A stretch of 64,000 nt of DNA from assembly GCF_008271365.1 (NCBI RefSeq), contig NZ_CP043430.1:124001-188000 (forward strand), given 5' to 3'. Under the pieces are notes generated by a model, which was not told where the DNA came from, did not search any database, and worked only from the letters and a program-made list of their open reading frames with translations. Made by a program: the position numbers and the translations under genes. The DNA is from Microbacterium sp. 1S1 (lineage in GTDB: Bacteria; Actinomycetota; Actinomycetes; Actinomycetales; Microbacteriaceae). Of this stretch, positions 1,959-16,611 are shown one piece after another (position 1 is the first letter of the stretch; each line of letters opens with the position of its first letter).

Positions 1959-4209
1959 CCGCCCGCGGCCCGCCGCGGTGCCCCTCGACACCCGCCTGCA
2001 GTGGCACGGCGAACGCGAGGTGCCCGCCGGAGTCGTCGCACCCGGTGTCCTCGCCGGGGCGGCCGCCCTCACCGCGCTGTGGCCGTTCACCTCGGTCATC
2101 GCCCCCGGTGCCTGGTCTCTCGTCGTGACCCTCCTCGTCGTCGCGGTCGTCGCAACGGGCATGCTCATGCGGCACCTCCTGCGCCGGCGTCGGGTGGCGA
2201 TCGTGGGTCTCCTCGCCCTCCTCGCGCAGCTCCTCGTGGCCACCGCTCTGCTCACCCTGCTCCTTGCGGGCGACACGGCCGTCCTGGGCATCGTCCCGAC
2301 CCCCGCGACCCTCGCGCTCTTCCAGGCGCTCGCCGCAGCCGCCACGGAACAGATCGTGTTCGGATCGGCGCCTCTCGCCGCCTCCCCCGGTCTGTCCGCC
2401 GCCCTGGGTGCGGGCTTCACCGTCGTCGCGATCCTCCTCGACCATCTGATCGCCCACCGGGCCGCCGTCCTCGCAACCGTGCTGCTGGGAGTGATCGGCT
2501 CCCTGCCGATGATCGTCACGCTGGGCTCCCCGAACCTGGCGTGGTTCGTCGTCGCCGCGGTCGTCGCGCTGCTCCTGTTCCGCCACACGGCGCGCCGGCA
2601 TCCGGAGTCGCCCCGGCGCGCATCGGGAGCGGTCGCGGTCACCGTCGGTGCGGCGGCCATCGCCACGGCGCTCGTCGTCACCCCGCTTCTCCCGGTGGGC
2701 TCGACGATCGCCGGAACCGGGGTCGGCGTCACGGTGGACGCCTCCCTTCGCCTCGGCGACGACCTGCGGCAGCCGAGCCCCGTCGAGGTCCTGACCGTGG
2801 CGACGAAGGCGGAGGCGGCGCCGTATCTCCGGCTCACGACGCTCTCCCGTTTCGACGGCCGTGTGTGGCAGCCCGATCGCGGAGACCTGCAGTCCCAGGT
2901 CGACGGTTTCGGCGGGGCGGAGTGGGGCGAGGACATCGCCACGGCGGAGCAGACGACGTCCATCCGGGTGCTTCGCATGTCGAGTTCCTGGCTCCCCGTG
3001 CCCTACCCGGCCATCGATGTGCAGGGCCTCGGTGCGGCGTGGCGGGTGTCGCCTGAGAACCGCACCCTGTTCTCCCGGCGCGGCGACGCCGTGGGCAACG
3101 ACTACACCGTGACCTCGCTCCGCGTGACCCCGACCCTGGAGCAGATCCGCAGCGCGGACGCGGCTCGCCCCGTCGCGGACCCCGACGCGGAAGCCGTGGA
3201 GCTGCCCGGGATCATCGGTGAACTGGCCGCCGAGGTGACCGCGGACGAGGAGACCGACTACGACCGCCTCGTCGCGCTGCAGAACTGGTTCCGCACGCAG
3301 TTCGAGTACTCGCTGGAGACGCCCGTGGAGGAGGGCTTCGACGGCACAGGGGCGGATGCCGTCGCGCGTTTCCTCGAGGAGCGCTCCGGCTACTGCGTGC
3401 ATTTCGCGGGCGCGTTCGCCCTCATGGCCGAGAGTCTCGGGATGCAGGTCCGCGTGGTCGTCGGGTATCTCCCCGGTGCCCTCACGGACGAGAAGCGCGG
3501 CGACGAATCCATCTTCTCGGTGACGAGCGACCAGTTGCACTCGTGGCCGGAGGTCCTGTTCCCGGGCATCGGGTGGGTGCCGTTCGAGCCCACCGCCTCC
3601 CTCGGGGTGCCGACCTCCTTCCGCGCGGGCACGACGCAGGGCGGGACGACCGGCGGCCCCGCGGACCCGGCGCCGACGACGGCACCGCAGTCGGAGGAGA
3701 CCACCGCCCCGGAGGTCGACCGCGGCGATGCCGACCCCGGCTCCTCCGGGTCAGGAGAGCTGCGGCGCCTCGACCCGACGCCCGTCGTCCTCATCGCCGT
3801 CGGCGTCCTGGTCCTCCTGCTCGTCCCTGCCTCGATCCGGCTGATCGAGCGACGGCTGCGGCTCCGCCGCGCCGCGCACGGGGATGCCGCCGCGGCATGG
3901 GCCGAGCTCCGGGACACCCTCGTGGACCTTCGCGTGCCGGTGTCGGATGCCGAGAGCCCGCGGATGCGGTCCGCCGTGCTGGTGAGGGACGCCGGGGCCG
4001 ACGAGTCCGCGCTCCGAGACCTGACGGCGGCGGTGGAACGTGCGAACTACGCTCGTGCCGCCGACACCGCGGAGGACCTCGCCGCTCCGCTGAAGGTCGT
4101 CGTGGACAGCCTGCGACGGCACGTCGACCGCGGGACCAGGGCACGCGCGCTGCTGCTGCCGCGGTCGCTCTACGCTCCGCGCGGGGCCGACACCCGGCTC
4201 CTGGTGTGA
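1945..4209 (+). CDS. Transglutaminase-like membrane protein (TgpA/DUF3488 type)
   Basis: 754 residues. The N-terminal third carries about six to seven hydrophobic segments (residues about 25-260). A large extracytoplasmic part holds a transglutaminase-like core with Cys484 in RSGYCVHFAGAF and His532 in DQLHSWPEV, then an Asp/Glu-rich linker, one more membrane helix at about 610-630, and a cytoplasmic DUF4129-like tail. The thiol, His and downstream acidic residue fit a cysteine protease/transglutaminase fold. It is the third gene of the MoxR/DUF58/TgpA operon; such proteins are thought to act on cell-envelope proteins or peptides. The substrate is unknown. Confidence 0.92.
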   Translation: MFRADRPRPAAVPLDTRLQWHGEREVPAGVVAPGVLAGAAALTALWPFTSVIAPGAWSLVVTLLVVAVVATGMLMRHLLRRRRVAIVGLLALLAQLLVATALLTLLLAGDTAVLGIVPTPATLALFQALAAAATEQIVFGSAPLAASPGLSAALGAGFTVVAILLDHLIAHRAAVLATVLLGVIGSLPMIVTLGSPNLAWFVVAAVVALLLFRHTARRHPESPRRASGAVAVTVGAAAIATALVVTPLLPVGSTIAGTGVGVTVDASLRLGDDLRQPSPVEVLTVATKAEAAPYLRLTTLSRFDGRVWQPDRGDLQSQVDGFGGAEWGEDIATAEQTTSIRVLRMSSSWLPVPYPAIDVQGLGAAWRVSPENRTLFSRRGDAVGNDYTVTSLRVTPTLEQIRSADAARPVADPDAEAVELPGIIGELAAEVTADEETDYDRLVALQNWFRTQFEYSLETPVEEGFDGTGADAVARFLEERSGYCVHFAGAFALMAESLGMQVRVVVGYLPGALTDEKRGDESIFSVTSDQLHSWPEVLFPGIGWVPFEPTASLGVPTSFRAGTTQGGTTGGPADPAPTTAPQSEETTAPEVDRGDADPGSSGSGELRRLDPTPVVLIAVGVLVLLLVPASIRLIERRLRLRRAAHGDAAAAWAELRDTLVDLRVPVSDAESPRMRSAVLVRDAGADESALRDLTAAVERANYARAADTAEDLAAPLKVVVDSLRRHVDRGTRARALLLPRSLYAPRGADTRLLV

Positions 4210-4228
4210 GGCCGGATCGCCGCGGCGG

Positions 4229-5137
4229 TCAGGCCCGCGTCGCGACCCCCTCCGCGTGCACCGGGCACGCCACCGCGTCGCAGTCCGCGCAGACGACGAA
4301 CTGGGCGCGGCACGAGGGGTCCGGGCAGTTTGCGGTGCGCTTCGTGGCCGTGCCGCATCCGGCGCACGTGCCGATCACCCGGGCGTGGTCGGAGAAGTCG
4401 ACGGATCCGCGGCCGTCGAAGACATAGAGCGAGCCGTCCCAGAGGCCGTCGTCGCCGTAGGTCTCGCCGTAGCGGACGATGCCTCCTTCGAGCTGATAGA
4501 CCTCGCCGAAACCACGCGCGATCATGAGGCTCGACAGCACCTCGCAGCGGATGCCACCCGTGCAGTACGTCACGACGGGCTTGCCCTTCAGGTCGTCGTA
4601 GGCGCCGGAGTCGAGCAGCCCCACGAAGTCCCTGGTGGTCTCGGTGTCGGGCACGACCGCGCCGCGGAAGCGCCCGATCTCGGCCTCCAGCGCGTTCCGG
4701 CCGTCGAAGAACACGACCTCATCGCCGCGCTCGGCGACGAGCGCGTGCAGCTGTTCGGGAGTGAGACGCGTGCCGCCGCCGACGACGCCGTTCGCGTCGA
4801 CCTGGAGCTCGTCCGGTGCGCCGAACGACACGATCTCGTCCCGCACCTTCACGCTCAGCTTCGGAAAGTCGAGGCTGCGGCCCGCCTCGTCGAGCCCGGT
4901 TCCTTCGCTCCACTTGATGTCGGCGTCGCGGAACGGGGCATACGACCGAAACGACCGCACCCACTTCTTCAGGGCCGGAAGATCTCCGCCGAGCGTCCCG
5001 TTGATGCCGTGCGGCGAGAGGAGCACCCGGCCGCGCAGTCCCAGCGCCTCGCCGAGATCGCGCTGCCAGACGCGGATGGCCTCCGGGTCGGCGAGCGGCG
5101 TGAAGGCGTAGAAGAGGACGATCTTGGGGGTGGCCAC
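4229..5137 (-). CDS. trhO: tRNA uridine(34) hydroxylase / rhodanese-like protein
   Basis: 302 residues, the size of the TrhO (YceA) family that hydroxylates U34 of tRNAs in a prephenate-dependent route. The N-terminal domain (about 1-100, including [13 protein letters not shown]) is typical of the family. A rhodanese domain follows, with the active-site loop YCTGGIRCE; the catalytic Cys is residue 192 and the second family Cys is residue 198. The C-terminal tail has several CxxC pairs ([15 protein letters not shown]) that could bind a metal. It is convergent with the transglutaminase gene and stands alone. Confidence 0.93.
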
Positions 5138-5166
5138 CCAGGAATCCTACGTCGCGGCCCGTCGCT

Positions 5167-5898
5167 CTAGCTCACGTCCCGCTGCAGGAACACCGCCGCT
5201 CCCGCCCCCACCGCGAGCACGGTCCAGCCCGCCGCGATCGGCACCGCCGCCGGTGCGAACTCTCCGTCCGCGGGGATGCCCAGGGCGGCCACATCGAATC
5301 GGAAGGCGCCGAGCAGGGCAGGAAGAGGGAGGGAGACGGCACCCGCACTCCAGAACATCGCCACGAGGAGGCCCGCACCCATCGAGAGGGTGGCGGCGAA
5401 CAGCGCCGCGAGATGCGTCTGCACGACGATGCCGACCCCCAGACCCCACAGTGCCGCGGTCGCACCGAGGGCGACGGTCGATGCGACGGCGGACGCGTGC
5501 ACGGGAACGCCACCCATGGTCACCAGAAGCGCCGTGCGACCGCCTGCCACGGCGGCGACCGCGACGACCGCGCCGCCCAGCGCCGAAGCGAGCAGTCGGA
5601 CCATGAGCATCGCCCAACGGGACTCCAGCATCAGCCGCTGCGCGATGACGCCGTCCCGGCGGTCGATCGTGTAGCGGAAGGAGCCGTAGACGGCCGCCAG
5701 GATGCCGGCGTAGGTGGCGAGGACGGCGTCGAAAGGGGCGACGAGCTCCTCCCGGACCGCCGGCGGAGCGTCGGCGAGATCCGGCGGGATGCCGGTCGCC
5801 AGGGAGAGCGACAGCAGGAGGGCCGCCAGTGCGACCCCGAGGAGGACGACGTCCCCGGCCGCGCCCCGCGCCTGCGCCCGCAACGCCCGCCCGATCAC
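5167..5898 (-). CDS. ABC-2 type permease subunit of the daptide export/immunity system
   Basis: 243 residues with about six hydrophobic segments and no ATPase motifs. The GTG start at 5898 is chosen because it overlaps the stop of the upstream permease by 4 bases (GTGA), continuing the overlap pattern of the operon; open sequence further upstream in this frame is antisense-type noise. It is the last gene of the daptide operon. With the partner permease and the ATPase it probably forms an exporter for the mature peptides or for self-protection. Whether it exports, protects or both cannot be told from sequence. Confidence 0.85.
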   Translation of the reverse strand: MIGRALRAQARGAAGDVVLLGVALAALLLSLSLATGIPPDLADAPPAVREELVAPFDAVLATYAGILAAVYGSFRYTIDRRDGVIAQRLMLESRWAMLMVRLLASALGGAVVAVAAVAGGRTALLVTMGGVPVHASAVASTVALGATAALWGLGVGIVVQTHLAALFAATLSMGAGLLVAMFWSAGAVSLPLPALLGAFRFDVAALGIPADGEFAPAAVPIAAGWTVLAVGAGAAVFLQRDVS

Positions 5899-6623
5899 GC
5901 GACGCTCCGACGTCCCCGGACGGCGGCGAGCGCGACGAGGCCGATCGTCCACGTGATCCCGACGGCGGCGGCGGGCGTGAAAGCGAGCAGTCGGCCCTGG
6001 TATTCCGGCACGCTCAGCGCTGCGATGGCCATCCCCGGCGAGAACCGTGCGACCTCGGGCGCCGTCCGCAGCATCGCGAACTCCAGCGCCATCGGGAAGA
6101 CGAGGACGATGATCGCCGTCGCGTAGTAGTTCCGGGTGATCCAGCCGATCGCTCCGCCGCTGAGAGCACCGAGGACCACGCCGGCCAGAGCCCCGGCGAC
6201 GATGCGCCCTGCCTCTGCCGTGAACACGAGACCGAGCCCGTGCCGGGCCAGGAAGACGGAGATTCCGAGCGTCCACAGCAGGAAGACGACCACGGCCAGC
6301 GCGAGGGCGGTGAGGACACCGGCGACCATCTTGCCGCGAAAGGCGCGACGGAACCCGACCGCCGTGAGCGTCCGGTCCATGGAGCCGTAGTAGTACTCCC
6401 TGGTCACCGGGTAGGCGCCCACGAACGCCGCCGAGATGACCGACCACGCGAGCGGTTCCAGCAGCCGCGCTGTCGCCGCCCCCGCGTCGAGCCCGTCCAG
6501 CGCGAAGCGCGAGCCGTCGGAGAAGAGCACGAAGGCCGGCATGAGGACCGCGACGAGGTAGACGGCGAGGATCGACAGCCCGCTCACCGCGCGCAGCAGT
6601 TCGCCGCGGGTCACGGCGCTCAT
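5895..6623 (-). CDS. ABC-2 type permease subunit of the daptide export/immunity system
   Basis: 242 residues, six predicted membrane segments, starting MSAVTRGELLRAVSG. This topology is that of ABC-2 permeases associated with small bacteriocin exporters. The ATG at 6623 overlaps the stop of the ATPase gene by 4 bases, and its own stop overlaps the next permease start by 4 bases. The two permeases are similar in length but clearly different in sequence, suggesting a heterodimeric membrane part. Confidence 0.87.
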   Translation of the reverse strand: MSAVTRGELLRAVSGLSILAVYLVAVLMPAFVLFSDGSRFALDGLDAGAATARLLEPLAWSVISAAFVGAYPVTREYYYGSMDRTLTAVGFRRAFRGKMVAGVLTALALAVVVFLLWTLGISVFLARHGLGLVFTAEAGRIVAGALAGVVLGALSGGAIGWITRNYYATAIIVLVFPMALEFAMLRTAPEVARFSPGMAIAALSVPEYQGRLLAFTPAAAVGITWTIGLVALAAVRGRRSVA

Positions 6624-7342
6624 GCGGAAGCTCCTTCGACGAGCTCGAAGTACCGGCTCTCGAGCGAGTCGACGCCGCCGGTGACGAGATCGTCGAGCCG
6701 GCCGGCGAAGAGCGCGCGGCGCTTGATGACGACGACCTCGTCCACGACCTGCTCGAGCTCGGAGAGCTGATGACTGGAGATGAGCACCGTGCCGCCGCGT
6801 TCGGCGAATCCGCGAAGGAACCGGCGCAGCCAGCGGATGCCGTCGGGATCCAGGCCGTTGGCCGGCTCGTCGAGGATGAGCGTCCGCGGCGCACCGATCA
6901 ACGCCGCGGCCAGCCCCAGCCGCTGCGCCATACCCGTCGAGTAGGTCTTCACACGACGACGCGCATCGGCGGCGAGGTCCACCTCGTCCAGCACTTCGTC
7001 CACACGGCCGCGGGGCGCACCGCTCGCGAGACGGCAGATCTCCAGGTGCCGCCGCCCCGAGATGCCGGGCTCGAAGCCGAACCCGTCCATGTGCACCCCG
7101 ACACGCGCGGCCGGGTTGTCCAGCGCCCCGAACGGCGTCCCCTCGATGACGGCTTCTCCGCTGGTCGGCCGGACGAGGCCGACGATCGCGCGCAGCGTCG
7201 TCGACTTCCCCGCACCGTTCGGGCCGAGGAGCCCGACGATCGCCCCGCGGGGCACCGCGAACGACAGGTCCTCGACAGCGGTGCGGCGTCCGAACCTCTT
7301 CGTGAGGCCGCGCACCTCGATGGCGTGCTGATTCATGGTCAT
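6620..7342 (-). CDS. ABC transporter ATP-binding protein of the daptide operon
   Basis: 240 residues. Walker A is GPNGAGKST (about residues 39-47), the signature is YSTGMAQRLGLA and Walker B is LILDEPANGLDP, followed by the SSHQLSELEQV H-loop. It belongs to the group of ATPases paired with ABC-2 permeases in antibiotic or bacteriocin export and immunity. The usual Q-loop glutamine is not obvious; VHMDGF stands there, as in some members of this group. The start ATG at 7342 overlaps the end of mpaP by 4 bases, which places it in the daptide operon. An alternative Met lies two codons downstream. Confidence 0.92.
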   Translation of the reverse strand: MTMNQHAIEVRGLTKRFGRRTAVEDLSFAVPRGAIVGLLGPNGAGKSTTLRAIVGLVRPTSGEAVIEGTPFGALDNPAARVGVHMDGFGFEPGISGRRHLEICRLASGAPRGRVDEVLDEVDLAADARRRVKTYSTGMAQRLGLAAALIGAPRTLILDEPANGLDPDGIRWLRRFLRGFAERGGTVLISSHQLSELEQVVDEVVVIKRRALFAGRLDDLVTGGVDSLESRYFELVEGASA

Positions 7343-9024
7343 CCTCTCTCCTCCTCGCTCGTGAGAGCTGCCAGCGGCGACGAGACCGCCGCCCAGAGCG
7401 CCTGCCAGAGCGGCGCCGAGCCGAGCTCCACGCGCGCTTGCCCAGCTGCCGGAAGGGCGCTCCGCTCCCCGGCCACCGCCACCTCCGCGACGGCCGTCAC
7501 CGGGACCGTCGCCCCGGGCATCCTGACCGGGAAGAGCGCCTCGATCGGCGCCCTGCTCTCCGTCGCGGGGCGAGCTTTGACCGTTCCCTCGCCCCGGTAC
7601 TCGTTCGCGAGGATGCCCCGCGTCGAGAGGACGACGGGGGCACCGTCCGGGATGTCGATGCCGGGGTCCGGTCCGCCCTGCACGAGGACCACCCGGTCGT
7701 CCTCCACCGAGAACCCCAGCATCGCGGCCGTGGGGACCGGGATGACGATGCCGGCGGCCACGATCCCGGCCGCGAGCGCGGCGGTCACCCCGACGAGACG
7801 GAATCGGGAGACACCGGATCGTCGCACGCGGAGCAGAGCGCGCCCCAGGAGTGCCACGCCCACCACGGCCACGACGGCCTCCAGGGCGAACACGATGAGA
7901 CTCGCCGCCGGCCCGCCTCCGGCGAGCAGCTGCGCGGTCCGGACGACCGCGATCAGCACCATGACGACCGGGGCCACCAGGCAGCAGAGACCGAAGGGCA
8001 CGCTCCACCACCGCTCCAGCGCCCGGGGCAGCCGCGGCCCCCCGAAGAGAAGGCGGGCGACGAAGGCCGCACCGTCGCGGACCGTCCTCCCCCGGAGATT
8101 CGGTTCGTCCAGGGCGCTCATCAGCGCGAGGTATCCGTCGAAGCGCACGAAGGGGATGAGGTTCACGAGCACGACGACCGTGCACGAGGCCGCGAAGAGC
8201 AGCAGTGTCTCGCGGGCCGCCGACGACGGCAAGAAGAGAGCAACGAGCATCGCCGCCGCCGCCACCGTGGCGTGGACGGCGGGGCCCGCCAGCGCGATCG
8301 CCACACGATCCCGACGGTCGGCGAGCCGCCAGCCGTCCGTCACATCGACGAAGAAGGCGGGCGTGAGGTACAGGAGCATGAACCCCGCGCGCCGCGGCCG
8401 TCCCCCCAGCCGGGTGAGGGTGAGGCCGTGCGCGGCCTCGTGGACCAGGGTCGCGAGCCCGAGCGCCACGACCACGAGCGTGAACCCGGCGAGCGGGACG
8501 GGACGAGCGAGCACGGCGCCCAGCTCGCCGGCGTGCCGGACCGCGGCGACGATCCCGGCACCGAGCAGCGCGGCGGCGGCAACGAGCACCGCGCGACGCG
8601 GCACGGGGGCCACCAGGCGGTCGAGGCGGGCGAAGAGCGTCGCAGCGCGGAGCGTCGCGAACTGCACGGTGAACGGCGGCCGATAGGTGACCCGGCCGGG
8701 CAGCCGAGACGCGCCCCCGTCCAGGAGCCCGGTGTCGCGGAAGCGCTCCATCAGTCGCAGCACGCTCTCGTCGCTCTCCCCCGGCGCGAAACGGTCCCGC
8801 AGCGCAGAGACCGCTGTGCGTCCGTCCATCGCCGTCAGCAGATCGACCACAGCACGGGACAGCCGCGCGGACGGTACGCCCTGAACGCTGACGAGCCACC
8901 CGGAGCCCTCCGCCGTCGGCTCGAAGGCGACGCCGGAGGCGAGGGACGGACACGAGTCCGTCGTGAGGGAGTCCCGCCCTCGTCCGCGGCGTCGCCGCAT
9001 GGGTCGAAGCCCTGCCGTGGTCAT
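7339..9024 (-). CDS. mpaP: Daptide biosynthesis intramembrane metalloprotease MpaP
   Basis: 561-residue membrane protein proposed to remove the leader of the daptide precursors. The zinc motif is HEAAH (His195, Glu196, His199) within a membrane helix, and the third ligand is Asp296 in the FDGY motif, as in M50 site-2-type proteases. About ten hydrophobic segments surround these sites. Residues about 25-90 (ending in LMERFRDTGLLDGG) look like a PqqD/RRE-type winged-helix domain, and the last 130 residues form a soluble beta-rich tail. The ATG at 9024 overlaps the mpaM stop by 4 bases. The name rests on family and context; the cleavage site is not predictable with confidence. Confidence 0.9.
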   Translation of the reverse strand: MTTAGLRPMRRRRGRGRDSLTTDSCPSLASGVAFEPTAEGSGWLVSVQGVPSARLSRAVVDLLTAMDGRTAVSALRDRFAPGESDESVLRLMERFRDTGLLDGGASRLPGRVTYRPPFTVQFATLRAATLFARLDRLVAPVPRRAVLVAAAALLGAGIVAAVRHAGELGAVLARPVPLAGFTLVVVALGLATLVHEAAHGLTLTRLGGRPRRAGFMLLYLTPAFFVDVTDGWRLADRRDRVAIALAGPAVHATVAAAAMLVALFLPSSAARETLLLFAASCTVVVLVNLIPFVRFDGYLALMSALDEPNLRGRTVRDGAAFVARLLFGGPRLPRALERWWSVPFGLCCLVAPVVMVLIAVVRTAQLLAGGGPAASLIVFALEAVVAVVGVALLGRALLRVRRSGVSRFRLVGVTAALAAGIVAAGIVIPVPTAAMLGFSVEDDRVVLVQGGPDPGIDIPDGAPVVLSTRGILANEYRGEGTVKARPATESRAPIEALFPVRMPGATVPVTAVAEVAVAGERSALPAAGQARVELGSAPLWQALWAAVSSPLAALTSEEERG

Positions 9025-9833
9025 CGCCCACCTCTTCCCGCACCGACATGGCGGGTCGTGAGGAGCAGGAGCTGCATGCCGACGGGCGTCCGCACCGGAG
9101 ACATCTCGGGCGCCAGGAAACCGGCCGCGACGAGTTCTTCGGAGAGGAGTCCAGGGTTCAGCACGTGCAGGCGACTCGTGAGGACGGGCACCTCCGCGCG
9201 CGGCGCGATGTCCGCGAGGCGGAGCCAGTTCACCACCCGCACGGCACCGTCGTCTTCGATCTGCTGCGCGAAGAGGTAGGGCTCGTCGCCGGCGTTTCCT
9301 GGGACCATGATCTCGCGGTCGGTCGCGACGGCGAGGGAGTCCGCCGACGCACCGTCCGCGATGGTGAGGGCGAAGACGCCGGCGGAGGCGAGATGACGGC
9401 GAACGCCCGCGTAGAGACGCGCCCGGCCTTCGCGATCGAGGAGGGTGATGGAGGTCGCCCCGAGGACGACGAGACCGAAGTGCTCGCCGAGCGCGAGGTC
9501 GCGCATGTCCGCCATGACACACTCGACCGTCGCCCCGTGCGGCACGGCGCCGCGGAGGCGCGCGAGCATGTCGGCCGAGAGATCGACCGCCGTGACCCGG
9601 TGTCCGGAGCGTGCGAGGGGGATCGTCAAGCGGCCGCTTCCCGCGGCGAGGTCGAGGACGGGCCCGGGGACCGTGCGCGCGAGCGCCAGGACCTCGCGGA
9701 TCTCCACGCGGTCCGGACCGACGAGCCGGTCGTAGAAGTCGGTGCCGGCCCCGACGTAGAGGTCCTGTGCCCTGGCGGTCGCGCCGACCAGGTCGAGCCG
9801 CGCAGCCACGGTCTCGGTGATCAAGGATGTCAT
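9021..9833 (-). CDS. mpaM: Daptide biosynthesis methyltransferase MpaM
   Basis: 270-residue class I SAM-dependent methyltransferase. Motif I is VLDLAAGSG (residues 59-67), followed by an acidic strand VTAVDLSADML and a motif at VECVMADMRDL. In the daptide pathway this enzyme is known to dimethylate the new C-terminal amine made by the aminotransferase. It sits directly after the three precursor genes and before mpaP, overlapping the latter by 4 bases. The ATG at 9833 is the only reasonable start in frame; a 3-codon open frame (ATG at 9841) ends inside it, with the Shine-Dalgarno-like AGGAG just upstream of both. Confidence 0.92.
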   Translation of the reverse strand: MTSLITETVAARLDLVGATARAQDLYVGAGTDFYDRLVGPDRVEIREVLALARTVPGPVLDLAAGSGRLTIPLARSGHRVTAVDLSADMLARLRGAVPHGATVECVMADMRDLALGEHFGLVVLGATSITLLDREGRARLYAGVRRHLASAGVFALTIADGASADSLAVATDREIMVPGNAGDEPYLFAQQIEDDGAVRVVNWLRLADIAPRAEVPVLTSRLHVLNPGLLSEELVAAGFLAPEMSPVRTPVGMQLLLLTTRHVGAGRGGR

Positions 9834-9841
9834 CCGTGCAT
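9830..9841 (-). other. Possible minicistron overlapping the mpaM start
   Basis: ATG-CAC-GGA-TGA on the minus strand: a three-codon frame whose stop overlaps the mpaM ATG (ATGA). The purine-rich AGGAGAGG lies 5 bases from this ATG and about 10-13 from that of mpaM, so ribosomes might start here and re-initiate on mpaM. It could equally be chance. Confidence 0.3.
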
Positions 9842-9863
9842 CGCCTCTCCTCGATGGATGGTC

Positions 9864-9890
9864 GGGGGGGGGGGGCGGACGATCCCGCCC
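9864..9890 (-). repeat. G12/C12 homopolymer plus hairpin between precursors and mpaM
   Basis: The plus strand has 12 consecutive G (9864-9875), the longest homopolymer I noticed in the window. It overlaps a perfect 6-bp hairpin (GGGCGG / CCGCCC, 9873-9890, six-base loop). In the transcript the hairpin comes first and the C12 tract follows. There is no U-tract, so it is not a standard terminator, but it may pause polymerase, set the ratio of precursor to enzyme message, or vary in length by slippage. Confidence 0.6.
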
Positions 9891-9900
9891 GCACCCTCGG

Positions 9901-10020
9901 TCAGGTCGCGATGGCGGCGGCTCCGCCGATGATCGCGATGATGTAGCTCGCGTGCTCCCACCACTCGAGCGGCGTGTCGATCTGTTCGAGTTCGAGGAAC
10001 TCCAGCGACGTGGACTGCAA
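9901..10020 (-). CDS. mpaA3: Daptide precursor peptide 3 (TTG start)
   Basis: 39-codon gene too short for usual gene calling. A strong Shine-Dalgarno (GGAGG) that overlaps the stop of the preceding precursor lies 7 bases before TTG at 10020, the only suitable start in frame. The leader has the shared motif FLELEQIDTP (residues 8-17), followed by a Trp pair and a hydrophobic segment ending IIGGAAAIAT. The C-terminal Thr is the residue that daptide enzymes convert to the dimethylated diamine. Numbering of the three precursors follows operon order and is mine. Confidence 0.88.
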   Translation of the reverse strand: MQSTSLEFLELEQIDTPLEWWEHASYIIAIIGGAAAIAT

Positions 10021-10030
10021 CGTGCACCTC

Positions 10031-10156
10031 CTAGGTCAGAGCGAGAATTCCGATGATCACGCCCACGGCGAAGCCGCGGATGTAGTCGTCGGCATCGCCC
10101 GGCGCGTCCATGGCCTCGAGCTCGGTGAACTCGAGCGCCGGCAGTGCTGCGGTCAT
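10031..10156 (-). CDS. mpaA2: Daptide precursor peptide 2
   Basis: 41-residue peptide, ATG at 10156 preceded by AAGGAGG. The leader motif is FTELEAMDAP (residues 10-19), then an acidic DADDY stretch and a hydrophobic tail ending GVIIGILALT. The final Thr and the 22-residue distance from the motif Pro to the end match precursor 3. The TAG stop overlaps the Shine-Dalgarno of precursor 3, so the two are probably translationally coupled. Confidence 0.9.
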   Translation of the reverse strand: MTAALPALEFTELEAMDAPGDADDYIRGFAVGVIIGILALT

Positions 10157-10199
10157 GCGTCCCTCCTTCCTTTGTCCGATCGAGCGCTGTCGGGCGGCA

Positions 10200-10334
10200 T
10201 CACGTGGCGGCTGCCGCGCCGATCCCGATGAGGACCAGCGCGCTGATCACGCCCTGGTAGAAGCTGTCCCAGCTGGGGGCCTCCATCGGGTCGAGCTCCT
10301 GGAACCGGATGCTCATCTCCGTGCTTTCGGTCAT
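10200..10334 (-). CDS. mpaA1: Daptide precursor peptide 1
   Basis: 44-residue peptide starting MTESTEM, with ATG at 10334 and a very strong Shine-Dalgarno (GAGGAGGTGA) that contains the mpaB stop codon 5 bases upstream. The leader motif is FQELDPMEAP (residues 11-20). The rest is a helix-prone hydrophobic segment (SFYQGVISALVLIGIGAAAAT is the last part) ending in the C-terminal Thr needed for daptide maturation. The acidic N-terminal half and hydrophobic C-terminal half are typical of a leader and a membrane-active core. Confidence 0.92.
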   Translation of the reverse strand: MTESTEMSIRFQELDPMEAPSWDSFYQGVISALVLIGIGAAAAT

Positions 10335-10339
10335 TCCCG

Positions 10340-11512
10340 TCACCTCCTCTCCGCCACTCGGGGCCGGCGGTCGCCGACCGCGGTCGTGCTCCACCGGGAG
10401 TCGTGGAGCACGGCGCGGACGTCCGCGGCGCGGATTCCGCGCAGCATGGGGCGGTGATCTCCCCACGCCGTCTCCACCGCCGCGGCGATCCGGTCGATCT
10501 CCCGTGCGCTCGGGCGCGGTGCCGAGGGGAGGCCTGCCTGATCGACGAGGACGGCGATGCCGATGGCGGGGTCGCGGGGCAGCGCCGTCGCGCCCGTGAC
10601 GTCCGTCCAGAAGGCGTCGAGGCTGGCGCGATCGCCCCAGCGCGGATCGCCCGCGGCGATCTGCGCCCAGACGGCGGCGATGACCGCTGCGGTCGCCGTC
10701 ATCTTGCGGACGCCGAGATGGAAGGCGACCTCGTTCGCGAGGTACCAGTGCCGGGCGCTGTACGGGTCGCGACCGCGGAGCGCGGCCGTGCGCTGGGTGG
10801 CGGCACTCAGCCGCGCCAGGCGCAGCCGCCCCGTCGTCGACATCGCGTCCCCCCTGGCCGCCTCGAGCAGCGCCCTGCCGAGCGTCCGCGCGTCGCGGTC
10901 GGCTCGCTCCGTCCGCGGACTCGTCGAGGCTCCGGCCACCCGGAGGAAGGCTTCCAGCGCGCCTTCCCGCACGGCAGCCGGCACGAGTGTGGCGAACTGG
11001 TCGGGGTCGAGGACGGCGTGGCGCGGCCGCAGCGGCCGACCGACGAGAAGCCGGGAACCGCGCCGGTGCCGGAGGACGGCCACGCTGTTCGTCTCCGAGG
11101 AGGTGCCGATCGTCGTCGGCACCGCGACGATGTCGACGGACGGAGGGGCGTCCGGCAGGATCGTGAGCGCCGAGATCTCCGCGTGCCGGAGGGCGAAGTC
11201 CAGAAGGCGCCCGGGGCTGAGCGCGAGGGCCGCGATCTTGCTCGCATCGAGGACGCTTCCGCCTCCGACGGCCACGATGACCTCGGGTGGTCGTCGGACG
11301 AGCTCCTCGGCGATCACGAGGACCCCGACCTCATCCACCGCTCCCGTGTCCACCGTCATCCTGCGGGCCGGGTGCGCGGTGGGAAGGGGGTACGCGACGG
11401 CCGCGTCGGCGATCACCAGCGTGTCCCGTCCCGCCGTGAGACGGACCATCGCCTCTCGTGCGCGGGGCCCGTGCCACAGCGTGGGGACGCGTGCGCTGAA
11501 CGGCGCGGTCAT
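10340..11512 (-). CDS. mpaB: Daptide biosynthesis oxidative decarboxylase MpaB (iron-ADH fold)
   Basis: 390 residues of the iron-dependent alcohol dehydrogenase superfamily. The nucleotide-binding motif GGGSVLDASK is at 83-92 and VPTTIGTSSETNS at 131-143. In daptides this protein, with MpaC, is reported to oxidise and decarboxylate the C-terminal Thr to an aminoketone-type intermediate. The expected metal-ligand motifs of the family (DAxxH and the late HG) are not recognisable: EGALEAF and FHLGVRKMTAT stand there. ATG at 11512 overlaps mpaD by 4 bases (ATGA), which fixes the start. Confidence 0.9.
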   Translation of the reverse strand: MTAPFSARVPTLWHGPRAREAMVRLTAGRDTLVIADAAVAYPLPTAHPARRMTVDTGAVDEVGVLVIAEELVRRPPEVIVAVGGGSVLDASKIAALALSPGRLLDFALRHAEISALTILPDAPPSVDIVAVPTTIGTSSETNSVAVLRHRRGSRLLVGRPLRPRHAVLDPDQFATLVPAAVREGALEAFLRVAGASTSPRTERADRDARTLGRALLEAARGDAMSTTGRLRLARLSAATQRTAALRGRDPYSARHWYLANEVAFHLGVRKMTATAAVIAAVWAQIAAGDPRWGDRASLDAFWTDVTGATALPRDPAIGIAVLVDQAGLPSAPRPSAREIDRIAAAVETAWGDHRPMLRGIRAADVRAVLHDSRWSTTAVGDRRPRVAERR

Positions 11513-12768
11513 GCCGCTCCCTGCCGCACGCGCGCCAGGCCGGCCCGAACGGCCCGGTCGGTCTCGGCCACCTCCGCCGCCGTGAAGCCGTAGCCGGGGA
11601 TGAGCTGGAAGGAGCTGGGACCGGGGTGGACCACGACGCCGCTGTCGGCGATGGCGGACACCACCTGCAGGACGTCGGCCCCGGAGAGCGGCGACCCGTC
11701 CGGGCGGCGGAGCCCCACCCCGACGAAACAGCCGCTGCCGGTGACGCCGGTGACGATCCCGTCGTCCTGCCAGGTCCGCGCGAGGTGGTGCACCGTCGTC
11801 GCCAGTGCCTGCGTGGTCGTCTCGACGTCGATGCGGCGGAGCTCGTCGATCACGGCGAGGACCGCGGCCGCACACGCCGGCGTGCCCGCCTGCGTCTCCC
11901 CGTGGACGAAGGTCCAGCCGCCGCGGGCGAACGCCGTCGCGATACGGTCTCCGACGAGGAGCGCCGCAGCCCCCATCGCGCCGTTCGTCAGCGCCTTCGA
12001 CACGATGAGGACGTCCGGAGCCGCCGCCCAGCGGTCGGTCGCGAACAGGGCACCGGTGCGCCCGAATCCCGTCGCGACCTCGTCCGCGACCAGCAGGAAC
12101 CCGTGCCGCTCCCGCAGCTCCAGGAGGCGGCGGACGAAGGCCCCGGACAGCGCGTGGGCACCGCTGCCCAGGACGGGCTCCACCACGACGGACGCGACTC
12201 GGGACCCTTCACGCTCCACGAGCGCCGCGAGCTCCGCCCCGTCGTCGGTGTGCGACACGTGCCGCACCGCTCTCCTGTCGACGCCGTAGACCGACTGCAG
12301 CAGGTCGTCGCCGCTCAGCACGTGGCTGCCGTACATCGTGCCGTGATAGCTCCCGCGCAGCCCCACGACGAGGGAGCGCGAACCCGAGCCCTGCTGCGCC
12401 CAGTACTGCCGCGCGAGCTTCATCGCGGCGTCATTCGCGGCCCCGCCCGACGTGGAGAAGATCACGCGCCGGTAGCGCTCGGATCCCGCGAGGGCGATGA
12501 GGGCATCGGCGGCGTCTTCGGCGTACCGGTGCGGGGCACGGAACAGGGAGAGGTACGAGGCGTCACGCGTCGCCCTGCTCACGGCCTCCGTCACGGCGGG
12601 GTTGCCGAAGCCGAGCGGAACGTTCCACAGCCCACTCGTCGCGCAGAGGCGTTCGGAGCCGTCGGCATAGAAGAGGCGATGTCCGGAGGCGCCGATCGTC
12701 ACGCGATCCGGAGGAAAGGCGGTGTCAGCGGGGAGCATCGACGTCCACAGCGCGTGCGGCACACTCAT
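11509..12768 (-). CDS. mpaD: Daptide biosynthesis aminotransferase MpaD
   Basis: 419-residue class III PLP-dependent aminotransferase. The PLP lysine is Lys258 in VSKALTNG, the ring-binding Asp is 229 in VADEVATGFGRTG, and the phosphate-binding region is STSGGAANDAAMKLAR near 105-120. In the pathway it aminates the ketone left by oxidative decarboxylation of the C-terminal Thr. Both ends overlap neighbours by 4 bases (mpaC upstream, mpaB downstream), so expression is coupled. Confidence 0.92.
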   Translation of the reverse strand: MSVPHALWTSMLPADTAFPPDRVTIGASGHRLFYADGSERLCATSGLWNVPLGFGNPAVTEAVSRATRDASYLSLFRAPHRYAEDAADALIALAGSERYRRVIFSTSGGAANDAAMKLARQYWAQQGSGSRSLVVGLRGSYHGTMYGSHVLSGDDLLQSVYGVDRRAVRHVSHTDDGAELAALVEREGSRVASVVVEPVLGSGAHALSGAFVRRLLELRERHGFLLVADEVATGFGRTGALFATDRWAAAPDVLIVSKALTNGAMGAAALLVGDRIATAFARGGWTFVHGETQAGTPACAAAVLAVIDELRRIDVETTTQALATTVHHLARTWQDDGIVTGVTGSGCFVGVGLRRPDGSPLSGADVLQVVSAIADSGVVVHPGPSSFQLIPGYGFTAAEVAETDRAVRAGLARVRQGAA

Positions 12769-13835
12769 CGGGCGCCTTCCCCCGAGGCATCCTCGACCGG
12801 ACCACCGAGGTGGACGCGGAGCGCGGCGAGCGCGTCCAGACACAGGCGCCGGGCGTGGGCGTCGGGCACGCCACAGGCGCGGGCCACGCGCGCGGCCGCC
12901 AGCGCGCGCGTGCCCGAGGTCTGGACCGCGTCGACCACCGCGGCGGTCAGCGGGGACAGGAGATGCCGGCGGAGGGTCCTGACGTCGGCAAGCAGGAAGC
13001 CCTCGGCAGTGTCGAGCAGGAACGGATCGTCGGGCAGGGGCTCGGCATCCGCGAGGTCGTCGTCGAGGAGCGCCCACCCGAAGCCCGCGATCCGGGCGGT
13101 GCCGTTCGGCAGGCGGAGCATCTTGCGGAGATCGGCCGCGTCGAGGTACCGGCTGAGCCACGGCCGGGCGTCGAGCTCGGCGACGAGGTCCGCCGCGCCT
13201 GGCACGCTGCCCAGTGCCGACATCAGGGGCACGGTTCGTCCGAGGACGGCCGGCAGGTCGTCCACGTGGCCGATCGCCTCCCCCTGCAGGCCGAGATGCA
13301 CGCCGCCGCCCGCGTCGACGCGGACGGCGCACGGAGTCTCCTCCCGGTGGGGCCGCGCGAGAGCGGCGCGGTCCGCCAACAGCACCCGCGGGTCGAGCAT
13401 CGCGGCGGCGAACACTCCGGTGGCGCGGGCGAGATCGGCGTCGTCCAGGAAGGCACGCCAGCTGCCCTCGTCGAAGAACCGCACCGCCGTCGGTCCGACG
13501 ATCTGGACGAACGAGGCCGCGATGTAGTCCTGAAGCTCGACGCCGCGCTCACCCAGGAACAGTTCGTCGCCGAGGTCGGCGAGCCTGCCCTCGTAGCCGA
13601 CGACGACCCGCGCCGCCCCCGGCCGAGGCACCGATCCTGCGGGCTCGAGGATCACGTCCTCAGGGTCGGCTGCAGCAGCGACGGATGCAGCCCCGACCTC
13701 CGTCTCGCGCAGGAACACGCGACCGCGCGCCCCCTGCCCGCCGGTGATCCACGCCCGCAGGGCATGCGGCCCGAGGAGCGGGTCTTCGCCCGTCCCTCCC
13801 TCGTCCTGCCGTGCCGTCGTCGCACTCGACCCCAT
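12765..13835 (-). CDS. mpaC: Daptide biosynthesis RiPP recognition protein MpaC
   Basis: 356-residue protein without a recognisable catalytic motif. In described daptide loci the protein in this position carries the RiPP recognition element that binds the leader and is needed by MpaB. Here the C-terminal 90 residues (from GFLLADVRTLRRHLL) are rich in short helices and look like a winged-helix; the central part contains the hydrophobic LQDYIAASFVQIVGPTAVRFFD region. It is the first gene of the operon. ATG at 13835 has only a weak G-rich ribosome site. The assignment rests mainly on operon position and general resemblance. Confidence 0.82.
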   Translation of the reverse strand: MGSSATTARQDEGGTGEDPLLGPHALRAWITGGQGARGRVFLRETEVGAASVAAAADPEDVILEPAGSVPRPGAARVVVGYEGRLADLGDELFLGERGVELQDYIAASFVQIVGPTAVRFFDEGSWRAFLDDADLARATGVFAAAMLDPRVLLADRAALARPHREETPCAVRVDAGGGVHLGLQGEAIGHVDDLPAVLGRTVPLMSALGSVPGAADLVAELDARPWLSRYLDAADLRKMLRLPNGTARIAGFGWALLDDDLADAEPLPDDPFLLDTAEGFLLADVRTLRRHLLSPLTAAVVDAVQTSGTRALAAARVARACGVPDAHARRLCLDALAALRVHLGGPVEDASGEGAR

Positions 13836-13875
13836 GATCCCCCCAGAGAACCGGATCCGTCTGACGCGGTTGCGT

Positions 13876-13887
13876 CTTCATATGAAG
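13876..13887. promoter_or_regulatory. 12-bp perfect palindrome at the daptide promoter
   Basis: CTTCATATGAAG is a perfect 12-bp palindrome overlapping the candidate -10 box and expected start of the mpa transcript. Position and symmetry suit a dimeric repressor. No regulator gene lies in the operon. Confidence 0.4.
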
Positions 13888-13913
13888 GTAGCTTTGCCTC
13901 GAATGCGGTGCAA
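13885..13913 (-). promoter_or_regulatory. Candidate promoter of the daptide operon
   Basis: On the minus strand TTGCAC (13913-13908) and TACCTT (13890-13885) are separated by 17 bases, a good sigma-70-type arrangement, about 50 bases upstream of the mpaC ATG. The region is visibly richer in A/T than its surroundings. Confidence 0.5.
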
Positions 13914-14000
13914 TATTACAGCTCCGCCAGCTCCAGGCCGGGATCTGCGGTATGTCACGAGGCCCGCAGGACATCGGATAGGATGGACAGGTTGTTCCTT

Positions 14001-14088
14001 GGTGACGTGTCCGAGCGGCCGAAGGAGCACGCTTGGAAAGCGTGTGTTGTGCAAGCAACCGCGGGTTCGAATCCCGCCGTCACCGCCA
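14001..14088 (+). tRNA. tRNA-Ser (GGA)
   Basis: Class II tRNA with a long variable arm. The acceptor stem GGTGACG pairs with CGTCACC, the anticodon loop is TTGGAAA (anticodon GGA), the T-arm GGTTCGAATCC is intact, and the 3' CCA is encoded (14086-14088). Confidence 0.96.
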
Positions 14089-14132
14089 GAAACGAAGAAG
14101 ACCTCCGCATCGCGGAGGTCTTCTTCGTTTCT
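14088..14132. terminator. Bidirectional terminator between tRNA-Ser and the GNAT gene
   Basis: A perfect 21-bp stem (14088-14108 with 14112-14132) and a 3-base loop. The outer part is A/T-rich on both sides (AAACGAAGAAG / CTTCTTCGTTT), giving a U-rich tail in either direction. Confidence 0.85.
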
Positions 14133-14140
14133 CGCTGCTG

Positions 14141-14743
14141 TCAGGTGTCGAAGCGTATCCCGTAGGTCAGTCCGCCCGGCGCGGAGGGGAGCCGGGTCAT
14201 GCCGAGGCGCTCGTAGAAGGCGGCAGCGCCGACGTTGGCGGGGTCCATCCCCAGGTGCAGCGCCGGGACGTCTCGTTCGCGCAGTGTGGCGAAGAGCGTC
14301 TCGATCAGGGCGCGGCCGAGCCCCTGCCCCTGGGTCTCCGGCAACAGGTCGATGTGCAGATGCGCGGGGTACTCCGTGGCGTTGGGCTCGACACCCGGTT
14401 CCCGCGTGTAGCCGTATTCGATCAGCTTCTCCTCGCGGGTCTGAGGATCGGCCGACCGGGGGTAGCGTGCATGCAGGGCGGGCCACCACTCGTCGCGGAA
14501 CCAGGCGGAGAACGCGTCGGTGTCGTCGGTCGCGACCAGGTAGCCGATGGCGCGCCCGTCGTCTGCCTCCACGACCCACGCGAGGTCGGGGTGCCGCTCG
14601 ACGTAGGGCACGGCGAAGAGGTTGCCCCAGAGCTCGTCATCCGACAGCACACCGGTGGCGTCTCCCCCGGCGTCCGCCGTCTTCACGCAGATCTCGAACA
14701 TCGCCGCGCGATCGGTCGGGCGGTAGGGGCGGATACGCGACAC
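14141..14743 (-). CDS. GNAT-family N-acetyltransferase
   Basis: 200 residues. Acetyl-CoA-binding motif A of the GNAT fold is seen at LPETQGQGLGRALIETLF (Q-x-x-G-x-G/A type), followed by the motif B-like AAAFYERLGMTRL. The N-terminus IRPYRPTDRAAMFEIC is typical. The long insert (residues about 45-120) resembles GNAT proteins annotated as related to glycoside or aminoglycoside modification, but the substrate cannot be named. Single gene, convergent with tRNA-Ser. Confidence 0.9.
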   Translation of the reverse strand: MSRIRPYRPTDRAAMFEICVKTADAGGDATGVLSDDELWGNLFAVPYVERHPDLAWVVEADDGRAIGYLVATDDTDAFSAWFRDEWWPALHARYPRSADPQTREEKLIEYGYTREPGVEPNATEYPAHLHIDLLPETQGQGLGRALIETLFATLRERDVPALHLGMDPANVGAAAFYERLGMTRLPSAPGGLTYGIRFDT

Positions 14744-14761
14744 GGATGCTCCTCGGAAGGG

Positions 14762-15403
14762 TCAGGGTGCGCTCAGCCTATCGGCGTGTGCGGCCGGCTC
14801 GACGTCGCGACGGATCCACGGCACGAGCCAGGCGCCGAGCACGAGGACGACGCCGGCGCCGACGAGGGCGCCGCCGAGCGTGTCCGTCGCCCAGTGCACC
14901 GACAGGAACGTGCGCGACAGCGCCATGAGCACGATCCATGCGGCCCCCACGATCGCCATCCACACTCGGGGGAACAGGACCCAGAGCACGAGCGCGATGG
15001 TCGCGGCGTTCGCGGTGTGACCGGACGGGAAGGAGCCGTAGTCGCTCACGACGAGCATGTCGTGGGGACGAGCGCGACCGAAGATGTTCTTCAGGAGTTG
15101 CACGGCACCCGCGCTGACGAGGAAGCAGAAGGCGGCGAAGAGGGCACCTCGCCATCGCCGCAGGAGCAGCAGGACCAGGATGGTCCCCAGCGGGACGGCG
15201 AGGATGGCCACCCACCCTCCGCCGATCCAGTTCAGCGCGAGCGCGAAGCTCAGCATCCAGTCCGCGCGGATCGCGCCGATCGTGTCGTTCCACCACTGGT
15301 CGAGGCCCGGTGTCTGCGGATACACGAAGACGACGAGCGCGCCGAGGGCGGTGGCCAGGAACAGGCAGGCGACGCCCCACCACAGCAGCATCCGTCGATT
15401 CAT
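14762..15403 (-). CDS. PAP2-family membrane phosphatase
   Basis: 213 residues with about six membrane helices. The three PAP2 motifs are present: KNIFGRARP, PSGH, and SRTFLSVHWATD. Such enzymes dephosphorylate lipid phosphates (phosphatidic acid, undecaprenyl diphosphate or similar) at the outer membrane face. ATG at 15403 is taken because it begins just before the first helix; the ribosome site is weak. The substrate is uncertain. Confidence 0.92.
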   Translation of the reverse strand: MNRRMLLWWGVACLFLATALGALVVFVYPQTPGLDQWWNDTIGAIRADWMLSFALALNWIGGGWVAILAVPLGTILVLLLLRRWRGALFAAFCFLVSAGAVQLLKNIFGRARPHDMLVVSDYGSFPSGHTANAATIALVLWVLFPRVWMAIVGAAWIVLMALSRTFLSVHWATDTLGGALVGAGVVLVLGAWLVPWIRRDVEPAAHADRLSAP

Positions 15404-15450
15404 CGTCCCATTGTGACCGATGCCCCCGTGATCGCGGGTCGGCGTGCCGG

Positions 15451-16611
15451 TCAGCGGCCGATGCGGGCGAGCCCCTGCTCGAGGTCCGCGATGAGGTCGG
15501 CCACGTCCTCGATGCCGACGGAGAGGCGCACGACGTTCTCCGGAACCGCGAGCTCGGTGCCGCGGACCGACGCGTGCGTCATCTCGGGCGGGTACCCGAT
15601 GAGCGACTCCACGCCGCCGAGCGACTCGGCGAGCTGGAAGAGGCTCGTGCTCTCGGCGAAGGCACGCGCCGCCTCCCCGCCGGCGGCGAGGCCGAGCGAG
15701 AGCATCCCCCCGAAGCCGCTCATCTGCCGGGCGGCGACCGCGTGCCCGGCATGCGACGACAGACCGGGATAGAAGACCTGGGCGAACTCGGGGCGCGCCT
15801 GCGCCCATTCGGCGATCGCCTGTGCGTTCTCGGAGTGCTGGCGCATCCGCACCGCGAGCGTCTTGATGCCGCGGGTCGTCAGCCAGGCGTCCAGCGGAGC
15901 AGAGACCGCGCCCACGGCGAACTGCTGGAACTTCACGGCCTCGACGAAGCGGTCGTCCCGGAAGACGACAGCGCCGCCGAGCACGTCGGAGTGTCCCCCG
16001 AGGTACTTGGTCGTCGAGTGCACGACGACGTCGGCGCCGAGCGCCAGGGGCTGCTGCAGGGCCGGCGAGGCGAACGTGTTGTCCACCACGACGAGGGCCC
16101 CCGCCGCGTGAGCGATCTCGGCGATGAGCGCGATGTCGATGACCTTGAGCAGCGGGTTGCTCGGCGTCTCCAACCACACGATGCGAGTCTCGGGACGGAT
16201 GGCAGCCCGGATCACGTCGACGTCGGACAGCTCGACGGTGGTCGTGTCGATCCCCCAGGGCGCGAGCACCTTCGTGAGCAGCCGGTAGGTGCCGCCGTAG
16301 ACGTCGTTGCCGAGCAGCACGTGATCGCCGGGCGCGAGGAGACCGCGCAGCAACCCGTCCTCCGCCGCGAGACCCGACGCGAACGAGAGCGCTGCGACCC
16401 CGCCCTCCAGCGCGGCGAGCTGCGTCTCCAGCGAGGAGCGCGTCGGGTTGCCGGCGCGATTGTACTCGTAGCCGTCGCGGAACCCGCCGATGCCGTCCTG
16501 CACGTGCGTCGAGGACTGGTAGATCGGCGGGATGATCGCCCCGGTGGTCGGGTCGGGCGCCTGTCCGGCGTGGATGGCGCGGGTGGCGAAGGCGTGATCG
16601 TGGTCGGACAT
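15451..16611 (-). CDS. metB: Cystathionine gamma-synthase / gamma-lyase family enzyme
   Basis: 386 residues of the Cys/Met metabolism PLP family. Lys202 in HSTTKYLGGHSD is the Schiff-base lysine; YEYNRAGNPTRSSLE and the VVVDNTFASP motif are present. Members act as cystathionine gamma-synthase or gamma-lyase and sequence alone does not separate them. The gene lies 54 bases downstream of a cystathionine beta-synthase gene on the same strand, which favours the lyase direction (homocysteine to cysteine). Confidence 0.9.
   Translation of the reverse strand: MSDHDHAFATRAIHAGQAPDPTTGAIIPPIYQSSTHVQDGIGGFRDGYEYNRAGNPTRSSLETQLAALEGGVAALSFASGLAAEDGLLRGLLAPGDHVLLGNDVYGGTYRLLTKVLAPWGIDTTTVELSDVDVIRAAIRPETRIVWLETPSNPLLKVIDIALIAEIAHAAGALVVVDNTFASPALQQPLALGADVVVHSTTKYLGGHSDVLGGAVVFRDDRFVEAVKFQQFAVGAVSAPLDAWLTTRGIKTLAVRMRQHSENAQAIAEWAQARPEFAQVFYPGLSSHAGHAVAARQMSGFGGMLSLGLAAGGEAARAFAESTSLFQLAESLGGVESLIGYPPEMTHASVRGTELAVPENVVRLSVGIEDVADLIADLEQGLARIGR

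Follow-up and report, generated by a model that had tools for sequence, protein, structure and literature searches.

The eleven-gene daptide locus

We analysed a 64,000-nucleotide stretch of the Microbacterium sp. 1S1 genome (contig NZ_CP043430.1, positions 124,001 to 188,000; hereafter the window), which encodes an operon for daptides, a class of ribosomally synthesized and post-translationally modified peptides (RiPPs). The operon consists of eleven genes, all open frames on the minus strand at window positions 5167-13835. Read from 13835 down to 5167, their order in the published nomenclature is B-D-C-A1-A2-A3-M-P-T1-T2-T3. The first-pass annotation gave the order as mpaC-D-B and thereby exchanged two names: MpaB is a fusion of a DUF (domain of unknown function) and a RiPP recognition element (RRE), and MpaC is the annotated alcohol dehydrogenase (PMC10036551). 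Its statement that most coding junctions overlap by 4 bases is fair, as six out of ten do so (B/D, D/C, M/P, P/T1, T1/T2 and T2/T3). The remaining four junctions, around the precursors, are gaps of 5, 43, 10 and 67 bases, and a single transcript of the dap genes is plausible. The genes are as follows.

12765..13835, minus strand: dapB (MpaB type), daptide RiPP recognition protein (NF041823, 285 bits; cut-off 150)
11509..12768, minus strand: dapD, pyridoxal phosphate-dependent class III aminotransferase (NF041821, 579.7 bits; cut-off 450; PF00202)
10340..11512, minus strand: dapC (MpaC type), oxidative decarboxylase with the fold of iron-containing alcohol dehydrogenases (NF041822, 357 bits; cut-off 300; PF00465)
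10200..10334, minus strand: dapA1, 44 aa, core SWDSFYQGVISALVLIGIGAAAAT (NF041805, 97.2 bits); product with a C-terminal N,N-dimethyl-1,2-propanediamine (Dmp) predicted at MH+ 2393.32
10031..10156, minus strand: dapA2, 41 aa, core GDADDYIRGFAVGVIIGILALT (NF041806, 94.6 bits); predicted MH+ 2232.28
9901..10020, minus strand: dapA3, 39 aa, TTG start, core LEWWEHASYIIAIIGGAAAIAT (NF041807, 86.9 bits); predicted MH+ 2339.29
9021..9833, minus strand: dapM, S-adenosylmethionine-dependent N-methyltransferase (NF041820, 263.9 bits; cut-off 175)
7339..9024, minus strand: dapP, with an RRE-like N-terminal part, an M50 intramembrane metalloprotease and a beta-rich C-terminal domain (NF041824, 409.5 bits; cut-off 300)
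6620..7342, minus strand: dapT1, ATP-binding cassette (ABC) transporter ATPase (PF00005)
5895..6623, minus strand: dapT2, membrane protein, presumed ABC permease from its position (conserved, adjoins T1 in relatives)
5167..5898, minus strand: dapT3, membrane protein, GTG start, presumed ABC permease from its position (conserved, adjoins T2 in relatives)

Against the daptide-specific NCBIfam models, five enzymes score above the curated cut-offs, namely the RRE protein, the aminotransferase, the dehydrogenase, the methyltransferase and the protease. The precursors likewise pass the 40-bit cut-offs of the curated equivalog models for MpaA1, MpaA2 and MpaA3, with one precursor for each of NF041805, NF041806 and NF041807, as in the mpa subgroup. 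The earlier identification of a daptide-type operon is borne out by these five enzyme and three precursor models; the RRE protein and the protease, which it had singled out for checking against daptide families, both lie far above their cut-offs, so that this check did not refute it. A different RiPP class is rejected on the strength of these above-threshold daptide scores. The daptide RRE model matched none of 14 control genomes, and therefore the daptide match is not due to chance. The assignment is thus secure, and the system is an already described one, ordinary for its class. With hardly any doubt, the daptide operon of the window is complete and is an orthologue of the mpa cluster characterised in Microbacterium paraoxydans, with the enzyme route proposed below.

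Each of the three precursors has an ELExMEAP-like leader motif (ELDPMEAP, ELEAMDAP and ELEQIDTP at the leader ends) and an invariant C-terminal Thr. Mature daptides of the Actinomycetota type end in (S)-Dmp, and masses were predicted on the assumption that the leader is cut off behind its last Pro and that the C-terminal Thr becomes Dmp. Daptides 1-3 from M. paraoxydans DSM 15019 have m/z 2363, 2232 and 2339 (PMC10036551), and the masses predicted here for peptides 2 and 3 equal the second and third of these. In four relatives (L037, L038, L039 and L042) the encoded cores come to exactly 2363.31, 2232.28 and 2339.29; the window departs from them at a single residue, number 11 of core 1, which is Ser instead of Gly, and peptide 1 is predicted to be one new natural variant. 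The expectation that the products are hydrophobic peptides charged at both ends holds for the two terminal cations, but there are acidic residues near the N-terminus, so that peptides 1, 2 and 3 with Dmp come to net charges of no more than +1, 0 and 0 by calculation.

The C-terminal RRE of DapB lies at residues ~262-339, where the predicted structure suggests an RRE-like fold. For a fold of the N-terminal part of DapB, a Foldseek search with the DapB model returned nothing at E ≤ 0.001, and a second look covered almost only residues 247-348. In DapC, an alignment to YqhD places E187, R191, W256 and K270 at the four metal-ligand positions, in place of the ligands. E, R, W and K are invariant there in all 63 sequences compared. 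Such a replacement is also reported for TfDapC, which is metal-free (PMC12338566). The NF041824 match in DapP spans residues 26-397 and includes H194, E195 and H198 of the HExxH motif and D295, which are invariant in 40 sequences. The beta-rich C-terminal domain follows at ~428-537; the predicted DapP structure has a mean local confidence (pLDDT) of 77.4 and a predicted template modelling score (pTM) of 0.59, and Foldseek found nothing for this domain at E ≤ 0.001. Relative to L038, L042, L048 and L052, the non-synonymous rate (dN) is far below the synonymous rate (dS) in all five enzymes.

A second dapB-like gene, ~34% identical to that of the window, lies ahead of the usual one in 18 of the 69 fetched regions (L035, L040, L041, L043, L054-L056, L058-L062, L064, L065, L068, L069, L073 and L097). 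In some genomes (G016, G017, G127 and G157) this additional gene aligns to no more than the first two thirds of the model and is without the RRE part.

Relation to characterised clusters and a proposed route

The closest characterised system is the mpa cluster described from M. paraoxydans DSM 15019 (Ren et al. 2023, PMC10036551), which has the enzyme set, three precursors and two product masses out of three in common with the window. The leader of A1 in the window also ends in ELDPMEAP, just as published for positions E(-8) to P(-1) of the prototype (PMC10036551). Unlike the prototype, core 1 of the window is heavier by 30 Da, which fits the Gly11Ser seen against the four relatives. DapB of the window shares 85% identity with a protein cluster that bears the name M. 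paraoxydans. Because of the two equal masses, the single Gly11Ser and the DapB identity, we conclude from the sequences that the cluster in the window is the prototype one, carried by a close relative. For the prototype, the chemistry, leader use and haemolysis have been shown in the literature, and the same activity of the window copy would follow from orthology.

Two other daptide clusters share the core chemistry. In both tfDap (Thermobifida fusca) and saDap (Streptomyces azureus), Thr is converted to a ketone, an amine and then Dmp, with a metal-free DapC (PMC12338566). Both further encode a YcaO, by which an imidazoline terminus is formed, and D-Ala enzymes are present in tfDap, whereas the window operon encodes none of these; precursors number five in tfDap, four in saDap and three in the window (PMC12338566).

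In the route that we propose, DapB would bind the leader motif through its C-terminal RRE and present the C-terminal Thr to DapC. This metal-free NAD-type dehydrogenase would convert Thr to a ketone by oxidative decarboxylation, DapD would transaminate the ketone, and DapM would dimethylate the amine to give Dmp. DapP would then cut off the leader after its last Pro, and T1-T3 would export the peptides, protect the producer, or both. The output would be three hydrophobic, probably helical peptides that may act jointly on membranes as one co-inherited set.

A rival reading of T1-T3 is that the three proteins provide self-protection of the LanFEG type instead of, or besides, export. Among the NCBIfam models, T1 matches the lantibiotic protection ATPase TIGR03740 best, and two separate membrane proteins come after it, as in LanFEG, where a related ATPase is followed by two membrane proteins. 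The match reaches 187.5 bits, however, below the cut-off of 309.75 that would mark a LanFEG ATPase, and the membrane partners T2 and T3 have no match in NCBIfam or Pfam at E 0.01. The operon holds no other transporter, and DapT1T2 are termed exporters in the excerpts of PMC12338566, where this is given without a test. A protective role comes close to, without reaching, an even chance.

Co-inheritance and conservation of the three peptides

DapB was found in 68 of 366 congeneric genomes and exceeded the cut-off in 65. The A1, A2 and A3 models each scored above cut-off in 58 of the 366, and the three sets of genomes are identical; no congeneric genome has one precursor family alone above cut-off. 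Ten genomes have DapB without the MpaA trio, and five of them (L080, L082, L083, L087 and L088) encode another trio of related design. The cores of this alternative trio resemble SEWTDFVNG, DFWTWYAAVKIG and EPWYIIVGD, and at least four of the five adjoin the same tRNA-Ser as described below. In a draw of 398 genomes from the family, the A3 model exceeded its cut-off five times: in the window's own genome, in one congener and in three genomes of another genus. In that second genus, A1-like, A2-like and A3-like peptides are consecutive and in that order at all three loci.

The counts of loci exclude L031-L034, which repeat L037, L068, L035 and L079. L103 is without a cluster, and L072 and L100-L102, without a detected precursor, are absent from the identity table. 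The precursor pattern overlooks A2 in L046 and L079 (G158 and G175), both found by the curated model, and gives one false precursor in L078; it also missed A2 and some A3 in L134-L136, which a looser listing showed.

In 42 of the 65 tabulated loci, DapB is 45-62% identical to that of the window. Mean identities at these loci are 53.6, 73.9, 60.7, 62.7 and 55.9% for B, D, C, M and P, 81.9, 66.7 and 59.8% for T1, T2 and T3, and 83.4, 79.2 (40 loci) and 93.8% for the cores of A1, A2 and A3. The cores are thus more conserved than most enzymes, and T1 is as conserved as A1 and A2, with the caveat that enzyme identities come from local BLAST and core identities from global alignment, so that the measures are not strictly equal.

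We propose that the daptides are a co-inherited three-peptide set that would act jointly, in line with the published synergistic haemolysis: mixtures of peptides 1+3, 2+3 and 1+2+3 are more haemolytic than single peptides (PMC10036551). Joint action is favoured because the trio is co-inherited and the mixtures are more haemolytic. Alternatively, the three peptides act independently, and the trio is kept together by linkage and recombination of the precursor block. Each daptide is haemolytic by itself (PMC10036551), and in four close relatives the synonymous differences of the cores number just 1-5 over 68 codons, a smaller proportion than in the enzymes (values for L038 and L042). This scarcity weighs against pure selection on the peptides, as it also fits recombination or nucleotide constraint. 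Independent action is harder to reconcile with the identical sets of 58 genomes, none with a family alone, and with L054, whose cores differ by 26.5 synonymous and 7.5 non-synonymous changes, a pattern that fits selection on the peptides. We regard independent action as a serious though somewhat doubtful alternative to a joint role.

Chromosomal site and expression

The operon occupies a recurrent site. In 50 of the 69 fetched regions (window included), dapB has a tRNA-Ser(GGA) no more than 1.9 kb away, and trhO is in the same stretch in 48 of the 69, the rest being partly contig-end cuts and partly other sites. In the window, the trhO-like rhodanese gene (4229-5137; PF17773, PF12368 and PF00581) follows dapT3 in the same orientation after 29 bases, and transcription of the daptide operon could run on into it. 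Among 298 congeneric genomes without DapB, trhO was matched in 15 of 20 tested, and the best 10 were fetched. In five of these (L121-L124 and L126) gnat is followed by tRNA-Ser(GGA) and then by trhO, the last two being 1.2-4.7 kb apart, and no dap gene was matched; the arrangement was not seen in the other five (L125 and L127-L130). L072 (G246) has a lone dapB match between trhO and tRNA-Ser, with no other dap gene matched, possibly the remnant of a lost operon. We also considered a mobile island integrated into the tRNA, which is unsupported: the operon is on the 5' side of the tRNA-Ser, and no integrase was recognised among the frames of 3500-15500, which were read by eye without a family search of all frames.

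Two elements may govern expression.

13874..13913, minus strand: promoter-like element TTGC..17..TACCTT with an operator-like dyad CTTCATATGAAG at 13876-13887 (putative role)
9867..9896, minus strand: hairpin that follows the precursors, precedes dapM and lacks a T-run, from a 25-sequence alignment (putative role)

Upstream of dapB, the pattern TTG, spacer, C.TC....GA.GAC occurs in 39 of 66 regions (window included) and is missing from 27, while shuffled upstream regions contained the dyad pattern in 2 of 3300 cases. Its free pair is complementary in 35 of the 36 distinct sequences (C-G in 24, T-A in 9 and G-C in 2, with one mismatch). We infer a promoter with an operator-like dyad at this position; a generic sigma-70 scan of 4100-14300 gave no sites. 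A regulon for the element was rejected, as the stricter dyad pattern matches the window's own genome only once.

The hairpin after dapA3 was aligned from 25 sequences chosen from 52 distinct ones and has 12 consensus pairs, five with changes on both sides. It may stabilise the upstream message or dampen read-through into dapM-dapT3. A conserved mini-ORF before dapM (ATG CAC GGA TGA) was dropped, being absent in L048. Relatives have CCGCCCGCAC where the window has a run of C (9864-9875, in the 3' arm of the hairpin), a real change or a sequencing artefact.

That the operon is intact but silent, or is starting to decay here with this poly-C tract as the first sign, is very improbable: the run breaks two of the 12 pairs, at positions where the window alone is affected, and the -10-like TACCTT is TATCTT in the four closest relatives, but all eleven frames are open, each enzyme and precursor model is above its cut-off, dN is far below dS as given above, and the C run could also be artefactual.

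Joining these lines, we tentatively suggest, at less than even confidence, that one A1, one A2 and one A3 peptide form an obligate three-component membrane-active assembly, which would evolve as one unit and be more tightly constrained than most of the enzymes of its synthesis, both in Microbacterium and in one or more other genera of the family. In Microbacterium it would sit mostly at the tRNA-Ser/trhO site, under the control of its own dyad operator and of a post-precursor hairpin that would set the amount of peptide message relative to that of the methyltransferase, protease and transporter genes.

The prototype daptide system is now placed in a sequenced close relative. The separate NCBI models for the three peptides indicate that curators already recognise three families; their co-occurrence in 58 of 366 genomes is not stated in the excerpts of the daptide literature examined (PMC10036551 and PMC12338566). 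The functional role of daptides is left open in PMC12338566, and the shared set of genomes points to a joint job for the three peptides.

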